Positions 4,761 to 33,381 of a stretch of DNA of 38,832 nucleotides are shown piece by piece. The DNA comes from an uncultured Fretibacterium sp. (GTDB taxonomy: Bacteria > Synergistota > Synergistia > Synergistales > Aminobacteriaceae), in the NCBI GenBank assembly GCA_947168585.1, contig CAMVMK010000018.1, forward strand, positions 1-38,832, read 5' to 3'. The notes under the pieces are model-generated. The model saw only the letters and a list, made by a program, of their open reading frames with translations. It was not told where the DNA came from and did not search any database. Each line of letters starts with the position of its first letter. The first letter of the stretch is position 1. A program made the translations under genes and the position numbers.

Positions 4761-5189
4761 ATGATAAAAAAATTTATTCCGGCGTTGTTAATAATTTTTA
4801 TATTTTCGTCAATTTCTTACGGAGCAAATTCTGATGATATTTATGTACGCAAAGATGTTTTTGACGCAAAAATGGAAGCGCAATTTAATAAGCTTCACGG
4901 AGAAATTCAAGCGTTAGAATCTCGAATGGTAGGAATGTTTGATAAGCTGGCTGGACGGCTCGACGGGATTGACAAAAGGCTTGACGGGATGGAAAAGCGC
5001 ATAGACTCGACAAATAATTTTTTATATTATCTGCTCGTGCTTTTAGGAGCGTTATTAATTCTGCCGTCTGTAAATAAATGGCTTGAAGGCCGCAAGGAAG
5101 TTAAAAAATATATGACGCTTGAAGAAGTTCGCCGTCTCATCGAAGAAAATAACATGAAAATAAGACCCGAGTATGCAAGTGCAAAGTAA
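4761..5189 (+). CDS. Array protein 1: exported coiled-coil protein with one membrane anchor
   Basis: First of five tandem paralogues; no family recognised. At 142 aa it has four parts. Residues 1-21 are a signal peptide or first membrane segment ending SYGA. A near-invariant block follows (SDDIYVRKDVFDAKMEAQF). Next is a charged coiled-coil stretch with LDG(I/M)(D/E)KR repeats. A hydrophobic segment (FLYYLLVLLGALLILPSV) then leads to a charged tail with MTLEEVRRLIEENN. If the signal peptide is cleaved, the coiled coil would be periplasmic and the tail cytoplasmic (inference). AAGGGGAG lies 9 bases before the ATG. A structural role at the envelope is possible, since the array sits inside the peptidoglycan cluster, but nothing in the sequence proves it. 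Confidence 0.85.
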   Translation: MIKKFIPALLIIFIFSSISYGANSDDIYVRKDVFDAKMEAQFNKLHGEIQALESRMVGMFDKLAGRLDGIDKRLDGMEKRIDSTNNFLYYLLVLLGALLILPSVNKWLEGRKEVKKYMTLEEVRRLIEENNMKIRPEYASAK

Positions 5190-5200
5190 ATTTTAACTTT

Positions 5201-5220
5201 CTCACTCCTAACCCCTCACT
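5201..5220. repeat. Heptad repeat in array spacer 1
   Basis: Units CTCACTC, CTAACCC and CTCACT lie between array genes 1 and 2. Confidence 0.8.
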
Positions 5221-5246
5221 AAAAATATAAAGGACGCGTGATAATT

Positions 5247-5648
5247 ATGATAAAAAAATTTATTCCGGCGTTGATAATAATTTTTATATTTTCGTCAATT
5301 TCTTACGGAGCAGGTTCTGACGATATTTATGTCCGCAAAGATGTTTTTGACGCAAAAATGGAAGCGTTATTTAACCGGCTTCACGGTGAAATTCAAGCGT
5401 TAGGCAATGAATTAAAAGGCGAAATGAAAGCCTTAGGTGCTCGAATGGACGCGCTTGAAAAACGCATGGGCAGTCTTGAAACGATAGTTACTTGGATTTT
5501 TGCTTTATTAAGTGTTGTTGTTGCGGCGATAGCTTTAACACCATTGATAAGAGAATTTCATAAGCCGAAATTTACTCTTGAAGATGTAAAAAAGCTAATC
5601 GAAGAAAACAACGCGAAATTAAGACTTGAGTATGCAAGCGCAAAGTAA
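5247..5648 (+). CDS. Array protein 2: exported coiled-coil protein, divergent membrane segment
   Basis: Second paralogue, 133 aa from the ATG at 5247. A GTG three codons earlier (5238) is also in frame, but it lies too close to the AAAGGA ribosome site, and the ATG matches the start of array gene 1. The signal peptide and the SDDIYVRKDVFDAKMEA block are almost identical to those of its neighbours. The coiled coil carries an extra LGNELKGEMKALGARMDALE module. The membrane segment is unlike the other four copies (IVTWIFALLSVVVAAIALTP), while the tail (TLEDVKKLIEENNAKLRLEYA) is conserved. That mosaic pattern suggests module exchange or recombination. The function is unknown. Confidence 0.82.
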   Translation: MIKKFIPALIIIFIFSSISYGAGSDDIYVRKDVFDAKMEALFNRLHGEIQALGNELKGEMKALGARMDALEKRMGSLETIVTWIFALLSVVVAAIALTPLIREFHKPKFTLEDVKKLIEENNAKLRLEYASAK

Positions 5649-5652
5649 ATTT

Positions 5653-5666
5653 TAACCCCTAACTCC
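5653..5666. repeat. Heptad repeat in array spacer 2
   Basis: Two units, TAACCCC and TAACTCC, lie just after the stop of array gene 2. Confidence 0.75.
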
Positions 5667-5698
5667 CCGCTAAAAATATAAAAGGAGGCGTGATAATT

Positions 5699-6139
5699 AT
5701 GATAAAAAAATTTATTCCGGCGTTGTTAATAATTTTTATATTTTCGTCAATCTCTTACGGGGCAAGTTCTGATGATATTTATGTACGCAAAGATGTTTTT
5801 GACGCAAAAATGGAGGCTCAATTTAATAAACTTCACGGAGAAATTCAAGCGTTGGGCAATGAGTTAAAAGGCGAAATAAAAGCCTTAGAGTCGCGAATGG
5901 TCGGTATGTTTAACAAGCTTGAGGGACGGCTTGACGGAATGGAAAAGCGCATAGATGCGACAAATAATTTTTTATATTATCTGCTCGTGCTTTTAGGAGC
6001 GTTATTAATTCTGCCGTCTGTAAATAAATGGCTTGAAGCCCGTAAGGAAGCTAAAAAATATATGACGCTTGAAGATGTGCTTAAAATTGTAGAAGAACAC
6101 AACGCGAAATTAAGGCCTGAGTATGCAGCTGTAAAGTAA
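5699..6139 (+). CDS. Array protein 3: exported coiled-coil protein with one membrane anchor
   Basis: Third paralogue, 146 aa from the ATG at 5699, with AAAGGAGG upstream; an in-frame GTG at 5690 is less likely. It is the longest copy: its coiled coil has both the LGNELKGEIKALESRM module of copy 2 and the MVGMFNKLEGRLDGMEKRID module of copy 1. The membrane segment (FLYYLLVLLGALLILPSV) and tail (MTLEDVLKIVEEHNAKLRPEYA) are shared with copy 4, in places base for base. The function is unknown. Confidence 0.82.
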   Translation: MIKKFIPALLIIFIFSSISYGASSDDIYVRKDVFDAKMEAQFNKLHGEIQALGNELKGEIKALESRMVGMFNKLEGRLDGMEKRIDATNNFLYYLLVLLGALLILPSVNKWLEARKEAKKYMTLEDVLKIVEEHNAKLRPEYAAVK

Positions 6140-6143
6140 ATTT

Positions 6144-6157
6144 TAACCTCTAACTCC
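6144..6157. repeat. Heptad repeat in array spacer 3
   Basis: Two units, TAACCTC and TAACTCC, in the same position relative to the stop codon as in the other array spacers. Confidence 0.75.
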
Positions 6158-6188
6158 TCGCTAAAAATATAAAAAGGGCGTGATAATT

Positions 6189-6596
6189 ATGATAAAAAAA
6201 TTTATACCGGCGTTGATAATAATTTTTATATTTTCGTCAATCTCTTACGGGGCAAATTCTGATGATATTTATGTCCGCAAAGATGTTTTTGACGCAAAAA
6301 TGGAGGCTCAATTTAATAAACTTCACGGCGAAATCGCTGAATTAAGGGGCGACATGAAAGCATTAGAGTCGCGAATTATCGGACGGCTTGACGGAATGGA
6401 AAAGCGCATAGACTCGACAAATAATTTTTTATATTATCTGCTCGTGCTTTTAGGAGCGTTATTAATTCTGCCGTCTGTAAATAAATGGCTTGAAGCCCGT
6501 AAGGAAGCTAAAAAATATATGACGCTTGAAGATGTGCTTAAAATTGTAGAAGAACACAACGCGAAATTAAGGCCTGAGTATGCAGCTGTAAAGTAA
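6189..6596 (+). CDS. Array protein 4: exported coiled-coil protein with one membrane anchor
   Basis: Fourth paralogue, 135 aa from the ATG at 6189. The signal peptide and SDDIYVRKDVFDAKMEAQF block are conserved. The coiled coil is shorter (IAELRGDMKALESRIIGRLDGMEKRID). From the membrane segment to the stop it is nearly identical at DNA level to copy 3, and the following spacer is also shared. That points to recent duplication or gene conversion. The function is unknown. Confidence 0.82.
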   Translation: MIKKFIPALIIIFIFSSISYGANSDDIYVRKDVFDAKMEAQFNKLHGEIAELRGDMKALESRIIGRLDGMEKRIDSTNNFLYYLLVLLGALLILPSVNKWLEARKEAKKYMTLEDVLKIVEEHNAKLRPEYAAVK

Positions 6597-6600
6597 ATTT

Positions 6601-6614
6601 TAACCTCTAACTCC
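6601..6614. repeat. Heptad repeat in array spacer 4
   Basis: Two units, TAACCTC and TAACTCC, identical to those in spacer 3. Confidence 0.75.
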
Positions 6615-6645
6615 TCGCTAAAAATATAAAAAGGGCGTGATAATT

Positions 6646-7032
6646 ATGATAAAAAAATTTATAGCGGCGTTGATAATAATTTTTATATTTTCGTCAATTT
6701 CTTACGGGGCAAGTTCTGATGATATTTATGTCCGTAAAGATGTTTTTGACGCAAAAATGGAGGCTCAATTTAATAGACTTCACGGCGAAATTAAAGCATT
6801 AGAGTCGCTAATTGTCGGACGGCTTGACGGGATCGAAAAGCGCATAGACGCGACAAATAATTTTTTATATTATTTGCTTGTGCTTTTAGGAGCGTTATTA
6901 ATTCTGCCGTCTGTAAATAAATGGCTTGAAACCCGCAAGGAAGCTAAAAAATATATTACGCTTGAAGATGTGCTTAAAATTATCGAGGAAAACAACGCGA
7001 AATTAAGACCTGAGTATGCAAGCGCAAAGTAA
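6646..7032 (+). CDS. Array protein 5: exported coiled-coil protein with one membrane anchor
   Basis: Fifth and shortest paralogue, 128 aa from the ATG at 6646. It has the same signal peptide (one Pro changed to Ala), the YVRKDVFDAKMEAQF block and a reduced coiled coil (IKALESLIVGRLDGIEKRID). The membrane segment and tail are the common type. Across the five copies the two ends stay constant while the coiled coil grows or shrinks by whole modules, which implies that its length is the variable trait. It ends 15 bases from the convergent murE stop. The function is unknown. Confidence 0.82.
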   Translation: MIKKFIAALIIIFIFSSISYGASSDDIYVRKDVFDAKMEAQFNRLHGEIKALESLIVGRLDGIEKRIDATNNFLYYLLVLLGALLILPSVNKWLETRKEAKKYITLEDVLKIIEENNAKLRPEYASAK

Positions 7033-12160: not shown

Positions 12161-15142
12161 TTACTCAATTTTTTTCCAATTTTCTTTATTAAATACTGTG
12201 CCTATTATTTCAAAAGTTCCTTGATCGAGATTAAATTGAGTCGCTGTTTCTCCTTCACCGCGTAAAGGCATTCTGCAATGTGTTCTGACCCTGATTGCTT
12301 CTTGCTGAGGATTACTCATTTTACGAATTTCATTGAGTGTCGGAATACCGTCGGCTCGCGCGATACCGTCCATTAATAAGCTCGGAGTATCTTCAATGGA
12401 CATAAAAGCGTCTGAAATTTTTAACGGCGAATGAGAATTGAAATCTTTGAACATAAGCAGCGAGTTAGGTCTTGCAGTTCCAATCATTGTATTATCGTAA
12501 AATGTAGTATAATTTTGCTGAAGTTTCCAGCTGTCTGCAAAATCATGATCAGAGACTACAACAATGCGGGTATTATCATAAATACCTAATTTTTTCAGAG
12601 ACGCTATAAAATCGGCTAAAAAATATATAATATGTTTTTCCGTATAATAATGTTCAGGAAAAACTCCATTTACTAACACAGTTTGACCATTAGTATCAGG
12701 ATAAGGATCAACAACAGGGAATAAATCATCAGAAGGCATGAACCAGGGCACGTGAGATAAACAAGAATAAATCATCTTGAAAGCCGGAGCATCATCGTCA
12801 ACGTGAGCAAAATCTCCCATAAATTGTATTGCGGCAATATTAGGCAAAAACCAATTTTTCAAGCCGATACTCAAAACACTTTCCATAATTTTAAGTGATA
12901 AAGCTGCTCTATATAAGCGGTATCTTATAGTGAAAGGACTTGCGCGCAACAATGCCATAAAAATAGAAAACCGCGAAATATATTCCTGCTGATCTTGATT
13001 TTGTAAGGAAAATCCTCTTTGCGTTGCCCATTGCAGCCAGTAAGGAACATAGTCATATCCCCATACAGCATCATAAATTAATAAAGCAGAATCTAAATTT
13101 TTGATTTTGTTTTCAAGATATTTTGACTGATCTTTTCTTAAAACAGACATTCCTGCTATAACTGTATCATAATTTTTTTCTGAAAAAACATTCGGATAAA
13201 ACGCAAAAGCATCGGCATATTTTTCTGTAATTAATTTATCAGGCTGAGCTTTATTTAATGTATTTGGCTTATAAGCTGCCCCGCCGTAAATTGAAGCTGT
13301 AGATAAAGCTGTACAAGCACCAGGAGCTACAGTATCCGGGAAATATATAAAACCGTCTAATTTTTCACGTAGAGTAGGGTCATCTTCTAAAATTCTTAAT
13401 AAATGATCTCCTGTGAAAGCATCAAAGAAAAATCCTACAACATTTTGTTTTGTCTTGCTAAATCGCCAAAGTCTATCATGATATTCTGGTAATTTTACTT
13501 TTTCGGAAAGTGCAGTATTTATTATTTTATTTTCAGGCGTTGTAAAATAATAATAACCGAACACAGCGAACATAGCAAAGGATAGAATATAAAAGCCGTT
13601 AATTAAAAATTTTATCCAGCGTTTTTTGATACAAATAATTATTATAATTAATGATAATGTAATGCCGGTCAAATCTTTTAATAATCCCCGCATACCGATT
13701 TGCAATGTATTATCATTTAATTGAAGAGTTTGCAGCTGTCCGTAATCTTCTGTTAAAATAAAAAAGTTTATAAAAGCAACACAACCGCCAAAAGCAGCTA
13801 AAACAGCTAATATATTTTGCACAGGAATTGGAAATATTGTCCACAATAAAATTGACGCTATAAGAAATCCTATACCGTATTTCAAAATACTTATTACAGT
13901 TGAAAGCAATGAAGACGGAAAAAATCCCTGATCTGATGAATACAACAGTGCCGGGTAAAACAGGCAAAATAAAAAAATCATGAACACAAGGACGGCGAAA
14001 AATAAAGAATTTCTATTGCCTCCTGTTAAAGTATCTGTAATTTTTTTTGCTTTTTCATATGGAACTGATAAGAATGCAGCACCTAATAAATAAATTAATT
14101 GTACAGAAAGTAAAAAAGTTATTCGATAACGAGCATATAATCTTAAATCATAATTATTGCCGCGTACAGTAAATATATTGGAAATTATAATTAATAACAG
14201 CGCACCAACAAGAATATAACTTAACCTTACAATAATTTCGGATAACGTAAAATTATATTTTGTAAAATTAAGAAAAAGCATCCATGCAAATATAAAAATG
14301 AACATTAACGTTATCATCATAGAATTTTTATTCATTTCCATTATCATATCTGGTGCAAAATTCAAATATAATTTATAAAAACAGCATGAATAAACCGACC
14401 AAAGAACGCACGGAACAAAGAACATCACGAACTTCAAAAGTTTATTTTCAGGTGAAACTTGGCGGCTTAAAACAAGTGAAATTTTTTCATGAGCACGTCC
14501 GAAAGTCTTTGCGTAAAGATTTTTAAGCAGCATTATAAAATTATTACTCGTCCAATATACCAGCAAAGCTGACGGAGCATTATACAATAATATAAAAAAT
14601 AAAATTGCAATAACAAACGCCTGTATTCTTTCGCGGCGGGTAAATCTTTCAGCCGTCAAAGTAGTAAGAAAATTAATCACCGTCATTGCTATCGGCAATA
14701 AATTTATCCCGAAAATTAATCCGTCAGGTCGCGACAAATCTGAAATTCCCGCGAATGACTGCCCCTGCAAAATAGTGAGTGATGACAACATCACATAAGC
14801 GGCGGATAACGGCAAAAGCTGAATAAATAAATCCATCCCCGAACGAATTGCATACAGCGGATTATAAGCGTAGCGTTTATAAAGTTCACTAAGTTCTGAA
14901 TGTTGTTCAGCACCGTGATATTTGCGCTTTATTTCGGCAATTTGCGGAGCTAAAATTTCCTGAATCCTGCGCTCTTTTTCCTGAATTTTTGATGCCCATG
15001 CTGAAAAAGGACGCAAAAGAATATTAACAACGATTGACATAAGAATTAGCGATAAACCTAATTTCCCTGTCATTGAAAACAACGCTAAATATAAATACTT
15101 GAAAATAGTTACAATAGGTTGAAAAAATAATTCGTAAAGCAT
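12161..15142 (-). CDS. YidC/Oxa1-like insertase fused to a sulfatase/LtaS-like phosphotransferase domain
   Basis: A 993-aa membrane protein of unusual composition. Residues about 1-215 look like the conserved YidC/Oxa1 core: LLRPFSAWASKIQEKERRIQ includes the groove Arg (R44), and a KRKYHG and LYKRYAYNPL segment leads into further membrane helices. Residues about 235-545 form a block of many hydrophobic helices. From about residue 560 a soluble domain resembles the alkaline-phosphatase/sulfatase superfamily (LtaS, OpgB, EptA types): an Asp in NVVGFFFDAF (metal ligand), GACTALSTASIYGG (candidate Thr/Ser nucleophile near 610) and VVVSDHD near 865 (metal-binding Asp-His). Inferred role: transfer of phosphoglycerol or a similar group to a surface polymer. 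It follows the glycerophosphotransferase gene by three bases. A plain hydrolase is an alternative. Confidence 0.75.
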   Translation of the reverse strand: MLYELFFQPIVTIFKYLYLALFSMTGKLGLSLILMSIVVNILLRPFSAWASKIQEKERRIQEILAPQIAEIKRKYHGAEQHSELSELYKRYAYNPLYAIRSGMDLFIQLLPLSAAYVMLSSLTILQGQSFAGISDLSRPDGLIFGINLLPIAMTVINFLTTLTAERFTRRERIQAFVIAILFFILLYNAPSALLVYWTSNNFIMLLKNLYAKTFGRAHEKISLVLSRQVSPENKLLKFVMFFVPCVLWSVYSCCFYKLYLNFAPDMIMEMNKNSMMITLMFIFIFAWMLFLNFTKYNFTLSEIIVRLSYILVGALLLIIISNIFTVRGNNYDLRLYARYRITFLLSVQLIYLLGAAFLSVPYEKAKKITDTLTGGNRNSLFFAVLVFMIFLFCLFYPALLYSSDQGFFPSSLLSTVISILKYGIGFLIASILLWTIFPIPVQNILAVLAAFGGCVAFINFFILTEDYGQLQTLQLNDNTLQIGMRGLLKDLTGITLSLIIIIICIKKRWIKFLINGFYILSFAMFAVFGYYYFTTPENKIINTALSEKVKLPEYHDRLWRFSKTKQNVVGFFFDAFTGDHLLRILEDDPTLREKLDGFIYFPDTVAPGACTALSTASIYGGAAYKPNTLNKAQPDKLITEKYADAFAFYPNVFSEKNYDTVIAGMSVLRKDQSKYLENKIKNLDSALLIYDAVWGYDYVPYWLQWATQRGFSLQNQDQQEYISRFSIFMALLRASPFTIRYRLYRAALSLKIMESVLSIGLKNWFLPNIAAIQFMGDFAHVDDDAPAFKMIYSCLSHVPWFMPSDDLFPVVDPYPDTNGQTVLVNGVFPEHYYTEKHIIYFLADFIASLKKLGIYDNTRIVVVSDHDFADSWKLQQNYTTFYDNTMIGTARPNSLLMFKDFNSHSPLKISDAFMSIEDTPSLLMDGIARADGIPTLNEIRKMSNPQQEAIRVRTHCRMPLRGEGETATQFNLDQGTFEIIGTVFNKENWKKIE

Positions 15143-15145
15143 TGG

Positions 15146-16504
15146 TTAAACCTCTTTAGCTTTCTTAATCAAATAATCCGCGATATGTTCGCCAGCTGAG
15201 CCTAAATTGACGATATTTTTTTCAATAAAATCGTTTGTTTCAGACTTTTTCGCAAGAGCCTGCTTTACAATTTCATTGATATTTTTGACTTCTTCAGGGC
15301 CTATCGATAAAGAAATTTTTTCAACAAGCGATGAACGCATTTCTTCCGGAAGATCGCTATATTCAAATGATGAAAGATTTTCGCCTTTAACTTTGAGAGA
15401 AATTACAGGTTTCTTGTAAATTACGGCATAATCAACCCGTATAGCAGATGTATCGGAGATCATTACGTCGGATTTAGCTAACGACTGTGAAGGATCGGGA
15501 TTTTCGTCCCAAGTTACATTAGAATAATTACCAAGAAGAGTTTTTATTCTGCTTAATAATTCGGGTTCTGATTTCCATGATTGCGGATGAGGACGCAAAA
15601 TTATGTCAAAATCAGGGCTTAAAGCGTCAACGATTGCTTTAACATCGTAAAACGATAAAAATCCTTTATCGCCCCACGACGGTGCAAGCAAAACTATTTT
15701 TCGTTCATGAGGCTCGCTCTCATGATAATTCTTCAGCAAAATATCCCAATACGGCAGGCCTAACGATACTAATTCTTTTTCGGGAAGATTTCGTAATTTT
15801 TCGAGATACCTTATTCGAGGCTTAACGTAGTCGCTGACAGTGCAGACACCGTCATAAAAATCTAATGAATTTTTTTTGTAGTATGCAATTCCCTCGGGAT
15901 CGTGAAAAACGTGCAGTAAAAATTTTGTTTTTGCAGGTTTTTTGATTGGATAGCCTTCAACACCGATGTTAGGCGTTGTAGACAACATAATTTTACATTC
16001 AACTCTGCTTAGTTTTGAGTCAGAAATGTACCCCCCCCCCAAGAATCGATTATGTACCAATTTACTTTTAATTTGTAAACCGGGATCTTCTGCATCCATT
16101 GTATAATAACTGAAAGACTGTCCGCGGCTAATTAAGGCTTGAACAATAGGCTCAAAAGTATTCCAATAATTTTTACCTTCAGAAAATATTACAATATCAT
16201 TGGCAGTTTCGTATTTATTTGTGCTTTTACCCATTAAACGGTAATAAATTCCTTTAAGAGCGTAAGCCGCTACGCTGACCAGAGTCAACGCAACATATAC
16301 TAAAGCATTTCCCGCGCTTGGGTCTAAATACGCTAATGCCGCACTCGGACACATTAACAACACGCAAAAAACTAAAAATAATACATCAAGTTTTATCTTA
16401 ATCACTCCCTTTATAATGCCGAAGCCGAAAGATAACAGCCCCGCAAATTTTCCGCAAAATTTTATCATTCCGTTATAAAAATCACAAATTTTTAAGACCG
16501 TCAA
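15146..16504 (-). CDS. CDP-glycerol glycerophosphotransferase family protein with G10 tract
   Basis: Up to 452 aa, with a TagB/TagF-like C-terminal domain: FLLHVFHDPEGIAYY, LGLPYWDIL, ILLRPHP, a SDVMISDTSAIRVDYAVIYKKP donor-site block and a helical tail. Family members move glycerol phosphate from CDP-glycerol to a growing polymer at the inner face of the membrane. The N-terminus has a signal-like helix, AYLDPSAGNALVYVAL (a YLDP motif seen in envelope-polymer loci) and a second membrane helix. The start is unclear: TTG at 16504 opens the frame and an ATG lies 12 codons later. A strong AAAGGGAG site, however, sits near 16407, just before the KIKLDVLFLVF helix, where no ATG, GTG or TTG is well spaced. 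Ten C at 16031-16040 encode FLGGGY, and any slip there would truncate the catalytic domain. It forms an operon with the YidC-sulfatase fusion. Confidence 0.8.
   Translation of the reverse strand: MTVLKICDFYNGMIKFCGKFAGLLSFGFGIIKGVIKIKLDVLFLVFCVLLMCPSAALAYLDPSAGNALVYVALTLVSVAAYALKGIYYRLMGKSTNKYETANDIVIFSEGKNYWNTFEPIVQALISRGQSFSYYTMDAEDPGLQIKSKLVHNRFLGGGYISDSKLSRVECKIMLSTTPNIGVEGYPIKKPAKTKFLLHVFHDPEGIAYYKKNSLDFYDGVCTVSDYVKPRIRYLEKLRNLPEKELVSLGLPYWDILLKNYHESEPHERKIVLLAPSWGDKGFLSFYDVKAIVDALSPDFDIILRPHPQSWKSEPELLSRIKTLLGNYSNVTWDENPDPSQSLAKSDVMISDTSAIRVDYAVIYKKPVISLKVKGENLSSFEYSDLPEEMRSSLVEKISLSIGPEEVKNINEIVKQALAKKSETNDFIEKNIVNLGSAGEHIADYLIKKAKEV
16031..16040 (-). repeat. G10 homopolymer in coding strand (candidate contingency tract)
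   Basis: Ten consecutive C on the plus strand, inside the glycerophosphotransferase gene. The current length keeps the frame open (Leu-Gly-Gly-Gly-Tyr). It is the longest G/C homopolymer in this AT-rich window. Confidence 0.9.
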
Positions 16505-18997: not shown

Positions 18998-19902
18998 ATG
19001 AAAAAATTTCCAAGTTTACAGCGCGCTTTTTATGGTCTTGAAACATGGAAAGAACTTGCCTTGCGTATAGCCGCTCGAATTACCAAAAACAGCAAATATC
19101 TTGAACTTTTTGCTGCTTCTCATAACGGACGGCTTGCAAAAAAATTCACAACAAAAGACTGCATAAAAATTAAAGATGTAAAATTGCCGTTACTTAATGA
19201 TAAAGATTATGAATCAGGTCTTTGGGGTTCGGCTTTTTATGATACTTTCGCAGCATATTACTTTTACGATGACCGTTACGATGAAAAAATTTTCAAAATA
19301 CTCAACGATATTCTTGGCGAAGGTCCTTACGGCTGTGTAAACGATAAAGTCAACGTGCAAGTGAATTCAGGTGATGTTGTAATCGACGCAGGCAGCTGGA
19401 TAGGCGACTTTGCGGCTTATTCTGCTTCAAGGGGGGGGTAACTTTTGCTTTTGAACCTTCAGAACGAAATTTCAAATATCTTCAGCAGACAGCACAATTA
19501 AACCCTAATATCTACCCAATTAAAAAAGGTCTTTCCGACAAAACTGCAACTCAAAAAATTTTTCTGCGGAATGACGGCGGTAACAGCGCAGACTCATTAA
19601 TGGATAAAAGTAACGAAGAAAATTTTGACGAGGCTTCTTATCTCGTTGAGACTATAACTCTTGATGATTTTGTAAAAGAAAAAAATCTTGAGCGTGTTGA
19701 CTTCATTAAATCCGACATTGAAGGCTTTGAAAGAAATATGCTGCAGGGAGCGCAGGAAACTTTGAAAAATTTTGCTCCTAAATTAGCTCTTTGCACTTAT
19801 CATTTGCCGGACGATCCTGAAGTAATGACCGATTTAATTATGCAGGCCAACCCGAATTATAAAATCGTTTACGGAAGAAAAAAACTTTTTGCTTCTGTTT
19901 AA
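18998..19902 (+). pseudogene. FkbM-family methyltransferase, frame broken at G8 (phase-OFF copy)
   Basis: Paralogue of the gene at 20008-20934. The frame from the ATG runs to a TAA at 19439-19441 directly after eight G, giving a 147-aa product. One extra G would give ...SRGGVTFAFEPSE and continue to the stop at 19902, for a 301-aa protein. The remainder is intact: motif VIDAGSWIGDFAAYSA, FAFEPSERNFKYL, TLDDFVKEKNLERVDFIKSD, IEGFERNMLQGAQETL. FkbM proteins are SAM-dependent O-methyltransferases, often acting on sugars. The lack of other damage argues for a reversible OFF state rather than decay. The leader and 3' half are nearly identical to those of the second copy. Confidence 0.85.
19431..19438 (+). 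repeat. G8 homopolymer, out of frame
   Basis: Eight G after CTTCAA, where the paralogue has nine. This one-base difference alone breaks the reading frame. Confidence 0.95.
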
Positions 19903-19910
19903 TTTTTAAT

Positions 19911-19953
19911 TGAGGACTGAGGAGTTAAAAATTTTTAATTTCTCATTCCTCAT
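19911..19953. repeat. Heptad repeat, two opposed arms
   Basis: Purine units TGAGGAC and TGAGGAG, spacer TTAAAAATTTTTAA, then pyrimidine units TTCTCAT and TCCTCAT. It can fold into an imperfect hairpin between the two FkbM genes, just before the second promoter. Confidence 0.85.
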
Positions 19954-19954
19954 C

Positions 19955-19963
19955 TGCTATAAT
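19955..19963 (+). promoter_or_regulatory. Extended -10 promoter of FkbM gene 2
   Basis: TGCTATAAT, directly after the heptad repeat, 44 bases before the start codon. The same box is found before FkbM gene 1. Confidence 0.65.
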
Positions 19964-20007
19964 TTTCAAGTTTTCAAAAAATTTTTTATAGAAAGGAGTT
20001 TTTAATA

Positions 20008-20934
20008 ATGAATTATAATAAAAGCTTGCCTAAAGCATTTATTCGTGCACGTTACGGCGTTGACACTTGGGGTGAATTTTTCATGCGTATTCCTCAACGT
20101 GTAGCACGTTTTATTAAAAAATGTAGCAATTATCCCAAATTTTATTCTGATTCCCATGTCCGCCGTCTCTCGAAAAAATTTACAACTAAAGACTGCATAA
20201 AAATTAAAGATGTAAGATTGCCGTTATTGGATGAAGAACACGCACAGTTACTTTGGATTGGAGTATGGGAAGATACTTTTGCATCGTATTATTATTTTGA
20301 TGACCGTTATGACGAAGAAATATTCAAGTTATGTGAAAAATTATTCGGTGAAGGTCTTTACGGCTTAGTAAATGATAAAGTCAGCGTGCAAGTAAATCCG
20401 GGCGATATTGTAATCGATGCAGGCAGCTGGATAGGCGACTTTGCGGCTTATTCTGCAATTAGGGGGGGGGTAACTTTTGCATTTGAACCGTCAGAAGGTA
20501 ATTTCAAATATCTTCAGCAGACAGCAGAATTAAACCCTAATATTTTCCCAATTAAAAAAGGTCTTTCCGACAAAACTACAACCCAAAAATTTTTCTTTAA
20601 TAATTCAGGTAACACAGGCGCAGATTCTTTAATGGATAAGAGTCAAGATAAAAACTTTGAAGCCGCTTCAGATTTAGTTGAGACTATAACTCTCGATGAT
20701 TTTGTAAAAGAAAAAAATCTTGAGCGTGTTGACTTCATTAAATCCGACATTGAAGGCTTTGAAAGAAATATGCTGCAGGGAGCACAGGAAACTTTGAAAA
20801 ATTTTGCGCCGAAATTAGCTTTATGCACTTATCATTTGCCGGACGATCCCGAAGTAATGACCGATTTAATTATGCGGGCTAACCCGAATTATGAAATTGT
20901 TTACGGAAGGAAAAAACTTTACGCTTCTGTTTAA
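20008..20934 (+). CDS. FkbM-family methyltransferase, in frame at G9 (phase-ON copy)
   Basis: A 308-aa SAM-dependent methyltransferase. The N-terminal 120 residues (KAFIRARYGVDTWGEFFMRI, then FTTKDCIKIKDVRLPLL) precede the Rossmann domain. SAM motif I is VIDAGSWIGDFAAYSA, the acidic loop FAFEPSEGNFKYL, and the FkbM block VDFIKSDIEGFERNMLQGAQ. Nine G at 20462-20470 encode RGGV just after motif I; eight or ten would stop the frame. Known relatives methylate sugar hydroxyls in glycans, glycolipids or antibiotics. A surface-glycan target is inferred from the homopolymer and from the similar tract in the glycerophosphotransferase. AAAGGAG lies upstream. It converges with the RND operon. Confidence 0.88.
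   Translation: MNYNKSLPKAFIRARYGVDTWGEFFMRIPQRVARFIKKCSNYPKFYSDSHVRRLSKKFTTKDCIKIKDVRLPLLDEEHAQLLWIGVWEDTFASYYYFDDRYDEEIFKLCEKLFGEGLYGLVNDKVSVQVNPGDIVIDAGSWIGDFAAYSAIRGGVTFAFEPSEGNFKYLQQTAELNPNIFPIKKGLSDKTTTQKFFFNNSGNTGADSLMDKSQDKNFEAASDLVETITLDDFVKEKNLERVDFIKSDIEGFERNMLQGAQETLKNFAPKLALCTYHLPDDPEVMTDLIMRANPNYEIVYGRKKLYASV
20462..20470 (+). repeat. G9 homopolymer, in frame
   Basis: Nine G at the position where the upstream paralogue has eight. The frame is open at this length. Confidence 0.95.
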
Positions 20935-26802: not shown

Positions 26803-29136
26803 ATGCCGGTAAAAAAATCTGAATTATATTCAAAACTTTGGGAAGCCTGTAATAAACTTCGCGGCGGTGTCGAACCTGCCCGTTATAAAGATTATGTCCT
26901 CGTTCTTTTATTTTTCAAATATGTCTGCGATAAATATAATAATGAGCCTTTTTCAGAATTTATTATTCCTGACGGAGCGTCTTTTAATGAATTAATTAAA
27001 GCTAAAGGTAAAAAAGATGTCGGCGAAATCGTGAATAAAACTATTCAAAAATTTTTAGACGCTAACAAATTACGCGGCTCTTTGCCCGAAGTTAGTTTTG
27101 AAAATACTGACGAATTAGGCGAAGGAAAAGCATTAATTGAAAAAGTATCGGGCTTAATTGGTATCTTTCAAGATGACGCTCTCGATTTCAGCTCAAACCG
27201 GGCAAACGGAGATGATATTATCGGCGATGCTTATGAGTATTTCATGAAAAAATTCGCTCAAGAATCCGGCAAAAGTAAAGGACAATTTTATACTCCCGCT
27301 GAAGTTTCAAGAATAATCGCGCGTTTAATCGGAATTAATAACATTAAAGAAAAAGCAACTATTTATGATCCGGCGGCAGGCAGCGGAAGCCTTTTAATTC
27401 GCGCTGCTGATGAAGCTCCTGTTAATTCTCAAGGCGACTCTATGGCCTCAATATACGCTCAAGAAATTGATTTTGCAACAGCCGGACTCGCTAAAATGAA
27501 TTTCATTCTTCATCAAAAAGGTATGGGAGAAATTTCAAAAGGCAACACTCTTTCAGAACCTAAATATAAAGACAAATTCGGACAATTAAGACGCTTTGAT
27601 TTCGTTGTTATGAATCCTCCTTTTTCTGATAAATCTTGGTCTGACGGGTTAAACGTCAATGAAGATATTTATCATCGCTTTGACGGCTTCGGAACGCCTC
27701 CCGAAAAAAACGGCGATTATGCTTGGCTCCTTCACGTTATTAAATCCCTTGATACTAACGGCAAGGCCGGAATTGTTATGCCTCATGGAATTTTATTCAG
27801 GGGCAACGCTGAAGAAATTATCAGAAAAAATTTACTTAAAACAAGATATATTAAAGGTATTATCAGCCTTCCTCAAAATTTATTTTACGGTACAGGAATC
27901 CCTGCGTGTCTTGTTTTTATTGATAAAGAAAATGCCGAATCACGTGAAAATATTTTTTTCATTGATGCAAGCGGCGGTTTCAAAAAAGACGGCAATAAAA
28001 ATAGATTACGCGAGCAGGATATTGAAAGAATCGTGAGAGTTTACGAAGCTCAACAAGAAATTAGGGGCTATTCGCGTCTTGTTTCTTATTCTGAAATTTT
28101 AGAAGATAACGACGGCAATATGAACGTTCCGCGATACATTCAAAAAATTGACGATACTTTACCGCAAAATATTGAGGCTCATTTACACGGCGGAATCCCT
28201 GAGCATGATGTTGAATCTCTGAATAAAATTTGGAAAATTTCTCCGTCTTTGAAAGAAAAAATTTTTGAACGCATTGACGGAAATAAATTCAGGCTCGTTA
28301 TTGCTCTTGACGAAATTGAAAAAATTTTTGAAGACGACAAGGCTTTACGTGCTCAAAAAATTAAAGAAAGCGCGGGAATTTTTAACGCTTGGAAAAATGA
28401 AGCCCGTGAACTTTTATTAAATATTGATGAAAATACTAATCCGAAAAAATTAATTCGTGATTTAGGCGACATGATTTTACGCGAGTATGAAAATTCTTTG
28501 ATAGTTGATAAATATAGCGTGTTCGACTGCTTAATGAATTATTGGAACGAAATTTTACAGGACGATGTTTATATTATTAAATCTTCCGGTTATGAAGCAG
28601 GCCGGGAAGTTTCTTTTCAATACGACAAAAAAGGAAAAGTTAAAGATTTTGACGGCGAATTAATCCCGCGCGGAATTATTGAACGGAAATATTTCAAAAA
28701 TGATGCTGACGAAATTGAATTATTATTAGGAAAAATTAAAAATCTTGAGGCCGAAATTGAAGATTTATCAGAAGAAGAAAAAGACGAAAATGACGAATTA
28801 TCCCCCGAAGCCTTAAAAATTATACGCAAAAAAGAAAACGAAATTAAAAATTTATCGCAGCAGTCAAGAAAACTTCAGCGCGAACTTGACGAAGCAGTTT
28901 TGAAAAAATATGAAAATTTAAGCGTTGACGAAATTAAAAATCTTTTATTTAACGAAAAATGGACGGCTCGCTTACAACAAGATATTAACAGCGAGGTTGA
29001 CAGCGTATTAAATTCTTCTGTGTCGCGTCTTGTTATGATTGCTGAAAGATATTCGCGGACGCTCAGCGAAATTGAAAACGATACTGAAAAATCACGCGGA
29101 GCCGTTAATTTTGCTTTGAAAGGAATGGGATTTTAA
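26803..29136 (+). CDS. hsdM: Type I restriction-modification system, DNA methyltransferase subunit HsdM
   Basis: A 777-aa N6-adenine methyltransferase that pairs with HsdS to modify the target site. The N-terminal HsdM helical domain (LYSKLWEACNKLRGGVEPAR) is followed by the N6-Mtase domain with GQFYTPAEVSRII. SAM motif I is DPAAGSGSLL (near residue 190) and catalytic motif IV is NPPF (near residue 270). The body of most HsdM proteins ends near residue 500. Here about 280 further residues form a charged, helical and partly coiled-coil extension (LEAEIEDLSEEEKDEN and similar). AAAGGGGAA lies before the ATG. The stop overlaps the hsdS start by one base. Confidence 0.95.
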   Translation: MPVKKSELYSKLWEACNKLRGGVEPARYKDYVLVLLFFKYVCDKYNNEPFSEFIIPDGASFNELIKAKGKKDVGEIVNKTIQKFLDANKLRGSLPEVSFENTDELGEGKALIEKVSGLIGIFQDDALDFSSNRANGDDIIGDAYEYFMKKFAQESGKSKGQFYTPAEVSRIIARLIGINNIKEKATIYDPAAGSGSLLIRAADEAPVNSQGDSMASIYAQEIDFATAGLAKMNFILHQKGMGEISKGNTLSEPKYKDKFGQLRRFDFVVMNPPFSDKSWSDGLNVNEDIYHRFDGFGTPPEKNGDYAWLLHVIKSLDTNGKAGIVMPHGILFRGNAEEIIRKNLLKTRYIKGIISLPQNLFYGTGIPACLVFIDKENAESRENIFFIDASGGFKKDGNKNRLREQDIERIVRVYEAQQEIRGYSRLVSYSEILEDNDGNMNVPRYIQKIDDTLPQNIEAHLHGGIPEHDVESLNKIWKISPSLKEKIFERIDGNKFRLVIALDEIEKIFEDDKALRAQKIKESAGIFNAWKNEARELLLNIDENTNPKKLIRDLGDMILREYENSLIVDKYSVFDCLMNYWNEILQDDVYIIKSSGYEAGREVSFQYDKKGKVKDFDGELIPRGIIERKYFKNDADEIELLLGKIKNLEAEIEDLSEEEKDENDELSPEALKIIRKKENEIKNLSQQSRKLQRELDEAVLKKYENLSVDEIKNLLFNEKWTARLQQDINSEVDSVLNSSVSRLVMIAERYSRTLSEIENDTEKSRGAVNFALKGMGF

Positions 29137-30299
29137 TGGATTATCCGGCGGATTGGGAAGAAGTTAAATTACTTGATCATGTCAAACTTATACAGGGATT
29201 AACTTACACTCCTGAAAATGTAAAAACGCATGGGACTTTGGTATTACGTTCATCGAATATTCAAAATGGACAACTTTCATTAAATAATAATGTATATGTA
29301 AATTCCCAAATTTCTAAAGAAAAGATGATTCAAGATAAAGATATTTTAATATGTGTACGAAATGGAAGTTCTGAGTTAATAGGAAAAAGTTGCGTATTAC
29401 CTTCAATGAATAATACAACATTCGGAGCATTTATGTCTGTTTTAAGAGGAGATTCAACCGGCTATATTGCAAAAATTTTTGAAAATGACATTGTACAAAA
29501 ACAAATTAGAGGACGTAGTAGTGCTACGATTAATCAAATTACAAAAAAAGATTTTGAAAGTATAAAAATCCCTCTTCCTCCGCTTGCCGAACAGAAAGCC
29601 ATAGCCGAAACGCTCGAAACTTTTGACGAGCATATAAAAAATCTTTCGGAATTAATCGAAAAGAAAAAAGCAATCCGCGACGGCGCACTCGAAGATTTAA
29701 TGTCAGGCCGGATAAGATTAAAAAATTTTTCGGGCGATTGGGAAATTAAAAAGCTGGGAGGAGAATATTCAATTATTATGGGACAGTCTCCTTCTTCATC
29801 TTCATATAATCAAGATAAAAAAGGTCTTCCTTTAATTCAGGGTAATGCTGACATAAAAAATGGTATTACATTTACTGAAAGATATACATCACAACCAACA
29901 AAAATTTGTGAGGCTAATACTACAATTTTATCAGTTAGAGCCCCTGTTGGAACTGTAAACCAGTCGGATCAAAAAGTATGTTTAGGGCGAGGTGTTTGCG
30001 CAATAATTGGGGAAATATCAAATTTTATTTACTATCTCATGAAGTATAATGAAAAATCGTGGAAAAAATTAGAGCAAGGAAGCACTTTCACAGCAGTAAG
30101 CAGAAAAGTTATTAACGATTTTGAAATTTTTATTCCAAAAGATAAAACTGAGCAGCAAGCCATAGCCGAAACATTAACGGCCTTTGATGACGAAATAAAA
30201 GCCCTCGAAGCCGAACGCGATAAAATAAAAAAAATCCGGGACGGCGCAATGAACGATTTATTAACGGGAAAGGTACGGTTAAAAAATTATGGAAAGTGA
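29136..30299 (+). CDS. hsdS: Type I restriction-modification system, specificity subunit HsdS
   Basis: A 387-aa target-recognition subunit with the normal two-fold layout: TRD1 (residues about 2-150), conserved helix 1 (LAEQKAIAETLETFDEHIKN), TRD2 (about 205-335) and conserved helix 2 (EQQAIAETLTAFDDEIKALE). Each helix is followed by a similar block (IRDGALEDLMSGRIRLKN, then IRDGAMNDLLTGKVRLKN). These internal repeats set the spacing between the two half-sites. The TRDs do not resemble each other, so a bipartite asymmetric site is expected; its sequence cannot be predicted. It overlaps hsdM by one base and hsdR by 11. Confidence 0.95.
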   Translation: MDYPADWEEVKLLDHVKLIQGLTYTPENVKTHGTLVLRSSNIQNGQLSLNNNVYVNSQISKEKMIQDKDILICVRNGSSELIGKSCVLPSMNNTTFGAFMSVLRGDSTGYIAKIFENDIVQKQIRGRSSATINQITKKDFESIKIPLPPLAEQKAIAETLETFDEHIKNLSELIEKKKAIRDGALEDLMSGRIRLKNFSGDWEIKKLGGEYSIIMGQSPSSSSYNQDKKGLPLIQGNADIKNGITFTERYTSQPTKICEANTTILSVRAPVGTVNQSDQKVCLGRGVCAIIGEISNFIYYLMKYNEKSWKKLEQGSTFTAVSRKVINDFEIFIPKDKTEQQAIAETLTAFDDEIKALEAERDKIKKIRDGAMNDLLTGKVRLKNYGK

Positions 30300-33200
30300 A
30301 AGACAGCTTCAGGAACGAGTCAAACATTGGCTAATTGATGATCTTCATTATAAATTTTTAGGAAATCTTGAAAATCTCGATAATTCGCCCGTCATTGAAG
30401 AACTTTTGAAGAAAAATTTAGCCGCGCGGAATTATTCACGAGAAGTAATTTCAAAAGCCGTTTCAGAACTCGACAGCGCGGTTAAAAATCAAAATCTTTT
30501 TCTCTATCAATCGAACGAAAAAATTTATAATTTGCTCCGTTACGGCGACATTGGCGTAAAAGATAAAAACGGTAATGATGTAACAGTTAACTATATCGAC
30601 TGGAAAAATTTTGAAAAAAATGATTTTTATATCGCCGAAGAAGTTTCGATTTTATGCTCTGACGGACGAACTCACAAACGCCCCGATTTAGTTTTATATG
30701 TCAACGGGATCGCGCTCGGAATGATTGAATTAAAAAATTCCCGTGTATCAGTCGGTGAGGGTATCCGCCAGTTAATTAGAAATCAAAATAAAAACTGTAT
30801 TCAAAATTTTTTTAGCACTGTTCAAATTTTAATGGCCGGAAACGGATCGCAGGGTTTGAGATACGGCGTTATCGAGACTCCAGAAAAATATTTTTTAACG
30901 TGGCATGAAGACGAAAAAGCAAAAGATTCATTATCGTTAAAAATCCGCGAGGAACAAGCAAAAGAAAAAGATATACTGCGGGACGGTTTTATTTCGCTAT
31001 GTCAGCCTGAAAGATTTTTGAATTTAATTCACGATTTTATAATTTTTGATGCCGGTAAAAAGAAAATTGCACGCCATAATCAATACTTCGCCGTAATAGC
31101 TGCCCAAAAAAGAATTTTAGACGGTGAGGGCGGAATAATTTGGAACACTCAAGGCTCTGGAAAATCTTTAATAATGGTATGGCTTGCGAAATGGATTCGT
31201 GAACATATTGACGACAGCAGAGTTGTTATAGTAACTGACCGCGAAGAATTAGATTCCCAAATTGAAAGCGTTTTTCACAACGTCGGAGAAAATCATGTAA
31301 AACGGGCAAAATCCTGCGCGGACTTGCGTAATATTTTGAATAACAACGTTGATTTTATAATCTGCTCATTAATTCATAAGTATGGTCATGATGCCGGGAA
31401 AAATTCAGACATAGAATTATATACGCGGCAGTTATTGGAAAATCTTCCGAAAGATTACGAAGCTAAAGGAAATATTATCGCTTTTATTGACGAGTGTCAT
31501 CGTACAAATTCCGGCAAACTTCATCAGGCAATGAAAAAATTAATGCCGAAAGCTAAGTTAATCGGATTTACGGGAACGCCTTTATTAAAATCCGACAAGC
31601 CTACGAGCCTCGCAACATTCGGAGCATATATTCACACGTATAAATTTAATGAAGCAGTTAATGACGGTGTTGTTGTAGATTTAAGATACGAAGCCCGCGA
31701 CGTTGAGCAATATTTAACGGACAAGAAAAAAATAGATAAATTTTTTGACATTAAAACGCAGGCATTAACCGAACACGCAAAAAATGAATTAAAACGCCGG
31801 TGGGCAACTATAAGCAAGCTGTACAGTTCGAGCGAACGTCTTGAAAGAATTGCCGCCGATATAATTTTCGATATGGCCGTGAAGCCGCGACTCGTGAATG
31901 ACAGAGGCAACGCGATACTTGTGGCCGGAAGTATATACGAAGCGTGCCGATATTGGGAAATTTTCCAAGCTAAAGGTTTCACAAAATGCGCCGTTGTAAC
32001 GTCATATGAACCTACAGAAAAAAGCGTAAGGACTTCGGCTTCAGATACAAACCGGGAAAGCGAAGAAGAATATAAGAAAAAAATTTATGAAAAAATGTTA
32101 AACGGTAAAACTCCCGAAGATTTTGAAAGAGAAGCTAAAAAATTTTTCAAAGAAACTCCGGCTCAAATGAAATTATTAATTGTCGTTGATAAATTATTAA
32201 CCGGCTTTGACGCTCCCCACGCAACATATTTATATATTGATAAGAGCATGAGAGATCATGATTTATTTCAAGCAATATGCAGAGTTAATCGAACAGACGG
32301 TTATGATAAAGATTACGGCTATATTGTTGATTATATGGATTTATTCAGAAATATCGAGTCGGCGATAAAAGATTACACGTCTGAAGCGTTTGATTTATAT
32401 GATAAAAACGATGTCGAGGGATTATTAAAAAGCCGTTATGATGAAGCCTTTGCGGAAATGAACGGAAGTCTTGAGGCATTAAAAGATTTATTATCAGGCG
32501 TAAAAAGTCCCGGCCAAGATTCAAGTTACATTGAATATTTTTGTAACGATGAAAAAAAGCCGGAACGGGAAATCTTGTATAAATTAACATCTTCGATTAT
32601 CCGTTCTTTTTCAAATTGCTGTGATAGATTAGTATCGCATTATAATCTCACAGAAAAAAATGTTGACGGCCTCAGGCAAAAAATTAACGAATACTGCAGA
32701 GTAAAAGATTTAATAAAATATGCCAGCTGCGATTATATAGACTTAAAAGCCTACGAAGCCGACATGCGTTATATACTCGATACTTATATTCATGCTGAAG
32801 AATCAAAAATTATTAATGAAATGGCAGAAATGTCCCTCGTTGAGCTGCTTGTTGACGGAAAAAACTTAACGCCTAACGAAATTTTGAAAGAATTAAATTG
32901 CGATGATTCAGCAAAGCCGGAAATAATCGAAAATAATATCGCTCATGAAATAAAGCTGAGAGAGAACATGAACGAGGAATATTATAAAAAACTCTCGGAA
33001 ATGCTGAACGCTTTAATTAAACGCCGTAAAAACGAAGCACTTGATTACGCTCAATATTTAATTGAAATTGTAGAGTTAGCCAGAAAAGTTTTACATCCTG
33101 AAGAAGATATAAATTATCCTGACTTAATAAGAGAAAGCTCAGCGAGGCGTGCCTTATACGATTATCTTAACCGCGATGAAGAACTTGCATTAACGCTCGA

Positions 33201-33381
33201 TAAAACAATTAAAGACAGCTTAGAGCCTGATTTCAAAGAGAATGAACAAAAAAGCAGAAAAATCTGCAAAAGTATTTTTAATATATTCTTAAAATCAGGT
33301 ATGGACAAGAAAAAAGCTGAAGAAAAAACGAAAGAAATTTTTGATAAAATCGTAAAAATACAACCCGAATATGAAAAATAA
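30289..33381 (+). CDS. hsdR: Type I restriction-modification system, endonuclease/translocase subunit HsdR
   Basis: A 1030-aa ATP-dependent DNA translocase and nuclease. The N-terminal nuclease domain has RPDLVLYVNGIALGMIELK (PD-ExK type, near residues 131-148). Helicase motifs are the Walker A WNTQGSGKS (near 285), the DECH box FIDECHRTNSG (near 401), FTGTPLL, and LLTGFDAPHATYLYIDK with QAICRVNR in the second RecA domain. The C-terminal 250 residues are helical and would contact HsdM. The size is normal. The ATG lies inside the last hsdS codons. The reading frame is intact, so the system looks active. It overlaps the next gene by 11 bases. Confidence 0.96.
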   Translation: MESERQLQERVKHWLIDDLHYKFLGNLENLDNSPVIEELLKKNLAARNYSREVISKAVSELDSAVKNQNLFLYQSNEKIYNLLRYGDIGVKDKNGNDVTVNYIDWKNFEKNDFYIAEEVSILCSDGRTHKRPDLVLYVNGIALGMIELKNSRVSVGEGIRQLIRNQNKNCIQNFFSTVQILMAGNGSQGLRYGVIETPEKYFLTWHEDEKAKDSLSLKIREEQAKEKDILRDGFISLCQPERFLNLIHDFIIFDAGKKKIARHNQYFAVIAAQKRILDGEGGIIWNTQGSGKSLIMVWLAKWIREHIDDSRVVIVTDREELDSQIESVFHNVGENHVKRAKSCADLRNILNNNVDFIICSLIHKYGHDAGKNSDIELYTRQLLENLPKDYEAKGNIIAFIDECHRTNSGKLHQAMKKLMPKAKLIGFTGTPLLKSDKPTSLATFGAYIHTYKFNEAVNDGVVVDLRYEARDVEQYLTDKKKIDKFFDIKTQALTEHAKNELKRRWATISKLYSSSERLERIAADIIFDMAVKPRLVNDRGNAILVAGSIYEACRYWEIFQAKGFTKCAVVTSYEPTEKSVRTSASDTNRESEEEYKKKIYEKMLNGKTPEDFEREAKKFFKETPAQMKLLIVVDKLLTGFDAPHATYLYIDKSMRDHDLFQAICRVNRTDGYDKDYGYIVDYMDLFRNIESAIKDYTSEAFDLYDKNDVEGLLKSRYDEAFAEMNGSLEALKDLLSGVKSPGQDSSYIEYFCNDEKKPEREILYKLTSSIIRSFSNCCDRLVSHYNLTEKNVDGLRQKINEYCRVKDLIKYASCDYIDLKAYEADMRYILDTYIHAEESKIINEMAEMSLVELLVDGKNLTPNEILKELNCDDSAKPEIIENNIAHEIKLRENMNEEYYKKLSEMLNALIKRRKNEALDYAQYLIEIVELARKVLHPEEDINYPDLIRESSARRALYDYLNRDEELALTLDKTIKDSLEPDFKENEQKSRKICKSIFNIFLKSGMDKKKAEEKTKEIFDKIVKIQPEYEK

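Follow-up and report, generated by a model that had tools for sequence, protein, structure and literature searches.

Long poly-G tracts as probable phase-variable contingency loci in a Synergistota genome, with one of two neighbouring FkbM methyltransferase genes OFF as assembled

Two neighbouring paralogous genes carry a run of G at the same aligned codon, G8 in gene 1 and G9 in gene 2, and the locus raises the question of whether gene 1, the frame of which is broken at the tract, is a switched-off gene or a decaying one. The window, which is the whole stretch of DNA that was analysed (38,832 nt), belongs to a genome designated G000, a draft of 2.35 Mb in 110 contigs. The features of the locus are as follows:

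18998..19441, plus strand: FkbM methyltransferase gene 1, part before the frame break (147 aa; OFF as assembled)
19431..19438, plus strand: G8 tract of gene 1 (direct sequence reading)
19439..19440, plus strand: TA directly 3' of the G8 tract of gene 1 (genome-wide flank signature)
19441..19902, plus strand: remainder of gene 1 in a shifted frame (153 codons and a stop)
20008..20934, plus strand: FkbM methyltransferase gene 2 (308 aa, in frame; ON as assembled)
20462..20470, plus strand: G9 tract of gene 2 (direct sequence reading)
20471..20472, plus strand: TA directly 3' of the G9 tract of gene 2 (flank signature)

Gene 1 reads TCA AGG GGG GGG TAA at the tract, with the TAA directly behind G8, and gene 2 reads ATT AGG GGG GGG GTA ACT, with the frame open through G9. 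Both tracts start at the second codon base, directly 3' of the DAGSWIGDFAAYS segment, which we take to be SAM motif I. The initial annotation of this DNA had proposed a G homopolymer at the same codon after SAM motif I, an immediate TAA caused by G8 in gene 1, and a gene 2 that is kept open by G9, and direct reading of the sequence bore out these proposals. Behind the tract, gene 1 is open for 153 codons in the shifted frame (19441-19899) up to a stop at 19900-19902, with no other lesion. The combination G8-TA occurs three times in the window, whereas 100 dinucleotide shuffles gave a mean of 0.01.

Regarding the gene products, gene 2 scored 68.8 bits against PF05050 and 88.7 bits against TIGR01444, both above the curated cut-off, and the second part of gene 1 (ATG-started, 19600-19902) scored 55 bits against PF05050. 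The sole solved-structure match was 2py6, an FkbM methyltransferase (E 1.1e-8). By these profile matches, genes 1 and 2 belong to the FkbM methyltransferase family, with methyl transfer as the predicted activity and, judging from the family, a surface glycan or lipid as the likely target.

A comparison of genes 1 and 2 over the 153 aligned codons after the tract gave a dS of 0.37 and a dN of 0.08 (dN/dS 0.21), and, with the homologue of the related genome G007 as the outgroup, three amino acid changes were unique to gene 1 and six to gene 2. These values point to purifying selection on the OFF gene, and the claim that the rest of gene 1 is undamaged agrees with both its open codons and this ratio. 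Given a dN/dS of 0.21 and the few changes that fall on gene 1, this gene is not decaying as a pseudogene would, provided that conversion from gene 2 has not renewed it. Before the tract, the two genes are more diverged (dS 0.82) than in their 3' half, and gene conversion between the two is another process by which the second half of gene 1 may have stayed young (dS 0.37 vs 0.82).

The two tracts are part of a much larger set. G000 contains 60 tracts of G8 or more, 44 of which are G9 or more, against approximately 1.4 G8+ tracts per genome expected by extrapolation from the decay of runs 3 to 5. In 278 kb of G000 (the window, the surroundings of each of the 60 tracts, and one further stretch), the number of G/C runs fell from 2434 (length 3) to 406 (4), 49 (5), 8 (6), and 3 (7), and then rose to 16 (8) and 30 (9), followed by 6 (10), 7 (11), and 1 (13). 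The distribution of G/C runs is bimodal with a second peak at G9; A/T runs fall steadily, the longest being only 10.

The effect of the tracts on reading frames was examined by taking the longest open stretch on each side of a run on the same strand, with a minimum of 200 open bases on each side, and asking whether the two stretches share a frame. G/C runs of 8 or more in G000 gave 13 cases in frame and 15 out of frame; one of the latter (L040) was rejected as a broken gene because a GGDEF gene meets a peptidase gene there, which leaves 14 out of frame and 27 tracts. The control of A/T runs of 8 or more gave 31 in frame and none out. Among shorter runs in G000, the counts in and out of frame were 108 and 7 for A/T 7 (four of the seven lying within approximately 55 bases of a G tract), 4 and 2 for G/C 6-7 (one of the two being a third FkbM paralogue), 21 and 1 for G/C 5, and 191 and 3 for G/C 4. 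Fisher tests of the frame breaks at G/C 8+ returned 2e-6 against A/T 8+ and 2e-12 against G/C 4. G lay on the coding strand in 24 of the 28 two-sided G/C 8+ tracts (L040 junction included), and the two-sided coding test was failed by 32 of the 60 tracts of G000 and by 35 of the 47 examined in the relative G061.

In the relative G017 (42 of 44 tracts examined), the same test placed 10 tracts in frame and 14 out (A/T 8+ control, 6 in and 0 out); for G061 (47 of 50 examined), 9 were in frame and 3 were not (control, 2 in and 0 out). The tracts left out before these counts, two in G017 and three in G061, were all near contig starts, and the counts retain the G16-G21 tracts at contig ends (L160, L181, L187, and L199), which are possible sequencing or assembly artefacts. 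In GC-rich G057 and G088, the test has no power because the G5 and G6 controls were also often out of frame and thus look broken as well.

The window holds a third tract, absent from the initial annotation, which lies on the other strand:

15146..16504, minus strand: CDP-glycerol glycerophosphotransferase-like gene (PF04464, 39.4 bits, cut-off 22.1), in frame through G10
16031..16040, minus strand: G10 tract at codon ~155 of this gene, the third tract of the window
16029..16030, minus strand: TA directly 3' of the G10 tract in the minus-strand reading (flank signature)

The start of this gene is uncertain because its first ~41 codons are not covered by relatives. Of 43 genus genomes, four have a match to it, which is weak in one; the close copies carry G11 in G017 and G13 in G061, both out of frame and approximately 10 codons after the likely start, so that the tract position differs from codon ~155 in G000. 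Next to this gene, 12161-15142 on the minus strand encodes a protein of 993 aa that begins with a YidC/60KD_IMP domain (PF02096, 81 bits) and ends with a weakly matching sulfatase-like region (PF00884, 20.5 bits, below cut-off). This is an unusual domain pairing, and the protein may serve a glycerol-phosphate envelope polymer. The description of paired tracts in the initial annotation needs to be qualified: the pair is real, but not special in view of the third window tract, a paralogue with G6, and the many unrelated genes that carry tracts.

A profile search of the 27 two-sided genes, in which the pieces of broken genes were searched separately and a twin (L063:3350) was left out, gave above-cut-off Pfam matches for 16 of the 27 (a raw count), mostly in glycan-, acyl-, or methyl-transfer classes. 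The glycosyltransferases were GT2 four times, GT11 twice, and GtrII; the methyltransferases comprised two FkbM and three others; and an acyltransferase, a hexapeptide transferase, and a glycerophosphotransferase were also matched. Also among the 16 is an NAD-binding/amine-oxidase protein, the other piece of which has a below-cut-off match to UDP-galactopyranose mutase. Among the remaining two-sided genes are those of a MATE-like and a DUF6056 protein, some with weak matches to AlgX, symporter SDF, or methyltransferase, and pieces without a match.

Several of these loci have features of their own. At L057 (the MATE-like protein) and L069 (a protein that matches a dicarboxylate symporter below the cut-off), the same piece also has a below-cut-off HATPase_c_2 match in each case, and both genes are broken at the poly-G tract. 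Tandem gene copies at L076 (2503 and 3405), 93% identical over 378 bases, carry G10 and G9; a DUF4422 match was found in the first, and two differing bases lie directly before the tract. At L050 (~2499), a G9 lies in what appears by eye to be an anchor-like C-terminal tail of a protein of more than 640 codons. Other tract lengths would cut or swap this tail, and a switch between an anchored and a released protein is possible. The part of the L050 protein before the tract did not match Synergist_CTERM (TIGR04564), a model that by its name is typical of Synergistota and has four above-cut-off matches in G000 and none in 14 control genomes; one window protein scored 19.9 bits against it, below the cut-off of 22.5. 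The window also contains a tandem array of five paralogues (131-149 aa) that share a signal-like start (4761-7032, plus strand) and ORFs that read like the M, S, and R subunits of a type I restriction-modification system, without a long G tract (26803-33381, plus strand).

A search with gene 2 found a match in 27 of 61 genomes, G000 included. The tract site was readable in 20 close homologue copies outside G000, and 18 of the 20 have no run of 6 or more there. G007 carries G10 in frame at the same site, and G015 carries G8 in a copy without the motif I segment; the copy in G021 lacks a tract there and has a G9 at another position in the gene, and the third FkbM paralogue of G000 has G6 at the same site with a broken frame. 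The differing lengths at this site (G10 in G007 and G8 in G015) count in favour of phase variation, for which the initial annotation had suggested a comparison with related genomes.

For G017 and G061, 12 homologous tract pairs were selected, ten matched on both sides and two (L154/L141 and L142/L131) on one side only; the contig-end tracts of G16-G21 occur in none of them. The length differs in 8 of the 12. The register is firmest for three pairs because in several others the best-matching segment is tens to hundreds of bases off the tract; these three have at least 70% ungapped identity in both 45-base flanks and read G11/G10, G11/G13, and G8/G8, so that two of the three differ. The first of the three, a lipoprotein-like gene (L150/L192) with its tract approximately 13 codons after the cysteine, is open through G11 in G017, whereas G10 breaks its frame in G061. 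Three related genes in G061 and G017 (L137, L169, and L214) have G12 (out), G12 (out), and G10 (in frame) at one site.

The tracts are also alike in what surrounds them. The dinucleotide TA stands directly 3' of 58 of the 60 G8+ tracts in G000, and of 43 of the 44 tracts of 9 or more genome-wide; its share after G runs is 4-8% for runs 1-5, 3/8 for G6, 2/3 for G7, and 58/60 for 8+. It follows all 24 two-sided tracts with G on the coding strand (L040 junction included), with 10, 7, and 7 in the three downstream codon phases, all four tracts with C on the coding strand (antisense to the gene), and 30 of the 32 tracts outside the two-sided class. TA is thus not a codon or stop effect, since it is present in all phases, on both coding strands, and outside two-sided genes. 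The design of a stop codon as its reason was rejected on the same counts and because TA is extended to TAA in only 40 of 60 cases. A promoter -10 box was also rejected as the general reason because it fits only eight tracts, all outside the two-sided class, which are flanked by TTGAC and TAAAAT boxes with spacers of 15-21. Within the genus, the TA share of 9+ tracts varied: it was 12/15 in G066, 10/13 in G014, and 11/16 in G009; the bias was weaker in G032 (20/49), G063 (14/35), G017 (15/40), and G061 (17/46); and the share was 0/24 in GC-rich G057.

A different flank was found in G017 and G061, in which a 13-base motif lies upstream of tracts in unrelated genes with log-likelihoods of 113 and 110, compared with 41-59 in six control sets that were run from fewer starting points (12 vs 25). 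Flanks above 6 bits numbered 29/42 in G017 and 31/47 in G061, and the motif ended 2-4 bases before the tract in 24/29 and 0-2 bases before it in 18/31, respectively. We read this motif as part of a putative palindrome, CGTAAWTTACG. GTAW occurs in the 18 bases upstream of 22/42 tracts in G017, 23/47 in G061, 19/28 in G063, and 31/41 in G032, against 11% of random 18-mers from G017 and G061, and is near background in G000 (7/60), G066 (1/13), and G009 (2/15); this upstream view was limited to tracts that fit the search pattern (28/35 in G063, 41/49 in G032, 15/16 in G009, and 13/15 in G066). The distance of the palindrome-like motif is typical of each of the four species, with GTAW 12-16 bases from the tract in G017, G061, and G063 and 16-17 in G032, where an 18-base view may miss longer distances. 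In G000, no upstream motif scored better than the controls.

The tracts share a flank signature at the DNA level. Such flanks are not predicted by plain slippage with selection; they may provide a context for mutation, act as a binding site, or reflect how the tracts originated. The protein length of gene 2 across the tract equals that of most tractless relatives, which suggests a change in place rather than an insertion at this site. An inserted mini-element was rejected on this ground, and two narrow exact-pattern scans of viral contigs gave no match for one; insertion is conceivable in other cases, as G007 and the third paralogue have a few extra codons at the tract site. As a tentative proposal that we regard as rather unlikely, a sequence-directed process may create or keep poly-G, with a factor that grows or protects G runs after recognizing a site in the flank. 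Under this speculative scheme, the candidate sites would be the 3' TA in G000 and similar species and the CGTAAWTTACG-like palindrome ~12-17 bases upstream in G017, G061, G063, and G032. If such a process exists, the cell would have machinery of its own for producing hypermutable switches, and if the flank signature reflects mechanism, the old question of whether cells tolerate slippery tracts or build them becomes testable.

Slipped-strand phase variation, which the initial annotation had put forward, is very probably the best explanation, and the tracts are accordingly regarded as putative contingency loci. Long G tracts occur in reading frames beyond chance with a peak at G9, frame breaks are centred on G tracts and not on A/T 8+ runs and leave the remainder intact, the OFF gene is under purifying selection, tract length varies between homologous loci, including the L076 copies, with one ON/OFF difference between G017 and G061, and many glycan and methyltransferase genes are among the carriers. 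According to this explanation, DNA polymerase would slip on runs of 8 or more G with a presumably high rate of G gain and loss per lineage, and a gene would be in frame only at every third tract length. For genes 1 and 2, G9 would be ON, and G8 would lead through TAA to a 147-aa stub; since this stub ends just past the SAM-binding motif, methyltransferase activity is not expected of it. Varied ON/OFF combinations of the two FkbM methyltransferases, the glycerophosphotransferase, and many other envelope genes would then be expected within a population, with corresponding differences in phenotype, and the eight tracts between promoter-like boxes could adjust transcription by changing the spacer, provided that these boxes act as promoters. 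Phase variation by slippage gives no reason for the strict TA flank.

Two other explanations were weighed against slipped-strand phase variation. Gene 1 may be an ordinary young pseudogene, or its G8 an assembly miscall, with the tract being incidental. One tract alone does not decide the matter, a single missing G could be miscalled in a draft genome of 110 contigs, and real decay occurs in the FkbM family, as seen in the broken frame of the third paralogue at G6 and the G015 homologue without the motif I segment. We nevertheless consider this improbable because 14 of the 27 two-sided G tracts break the frame against none of the 31 A/T runs, gene 1 has neither another lesion nor an excess of amino acid changes, and the same pattern recurs in G017. 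The frame may instead be mended at the level of RNA or the ribosome, where slippage of RNA polymerase or the ribosome would give a full-length protein from either tract length and make the DNA length of minor importance. Homopolymers of eight or more have been described as sites of transcriptional slippage, the runs named being of A or T (PMC3711429), and the constant 3' TA could belong to a slippage context. However, TA follows antisense (4/4) and non-two-sided (30/32) tracts equally, where mending means little, and tract lengths are not conserved between species; we therefore give mending very little credence.

Poly-G phase variation itself is well known, and a description in Synergistota was not found. 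The initial annotation knew of none, and our literature searches, which covered few subscription papers, returned no such description among the matches listed for Synergistota or Synergistetes combined with phase variation, slipped-strand mispairing, or contingency loci. The available part of one paper did not tie Synergistetes to phase variation (PMC3711429), the text of another contained no word starting with Synergist (PMC2831843), and "phase variable" was absent among the matches listed for the genus names. Regarding flank motifs of poly-G tracts, nothing on the subject was found, as judged by titles and the starts of abstracts. The present results would extend contingency-locus biology to a phylum for which we found no description, with a number of switches similar to that of Campylobacter.

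In Campylobacter, the PhasomeIt survey, in the part available, described phasomes of mostly poly-G tracts with G rather than C on the coding strand, a peak at G9, carriers that include SAM-methyltransferases, and, in one C. jejuni genome, 81 putative repeats at a cut-off of 7, 1.8 times the species median (PMC6321876). G000 resembles these phasomes, as far as that part describes them, in its mostly poly-G tracts, G on the coding strand, G9 peak, methyltransferase carriers, and similar number. The genomes of the present study belong to another lineage, and G017 and G061 peak at G12; the near-universal 3' TA of G000 and the upstream motif of four relatives are not mentioned there for Campylobacter (PMC6321876). 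The eight tracts of G000 between promoter-like boxes are a further difference from Campylobacter. MutS domain I is kept in 43 of 43 genus genomes, and loss of MutS was rejected as the cause of instability on this basis; Campylobacter, in contrast, is not known to have canonical MutSL. At the family level (PF05050 and TIGR01444), the domain is the same in the FkbM homologues, 18 of 20 readable close copies of which are tractless at the site, and a Haemophilus paper reportedly mentions FkbM together with phase variation and homopolymeric terms. Homopolymer phase variation in Helicobacter and Neisseria is said to act by translational switching, including, according to a title, C-terminal switching in H. 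canadensis, which the L050 tract in a C-terminal tail resembles as far as that title indicates. The loci described in the present study differ from these homopolymer systems in their flank signature and in the organism that carries them.
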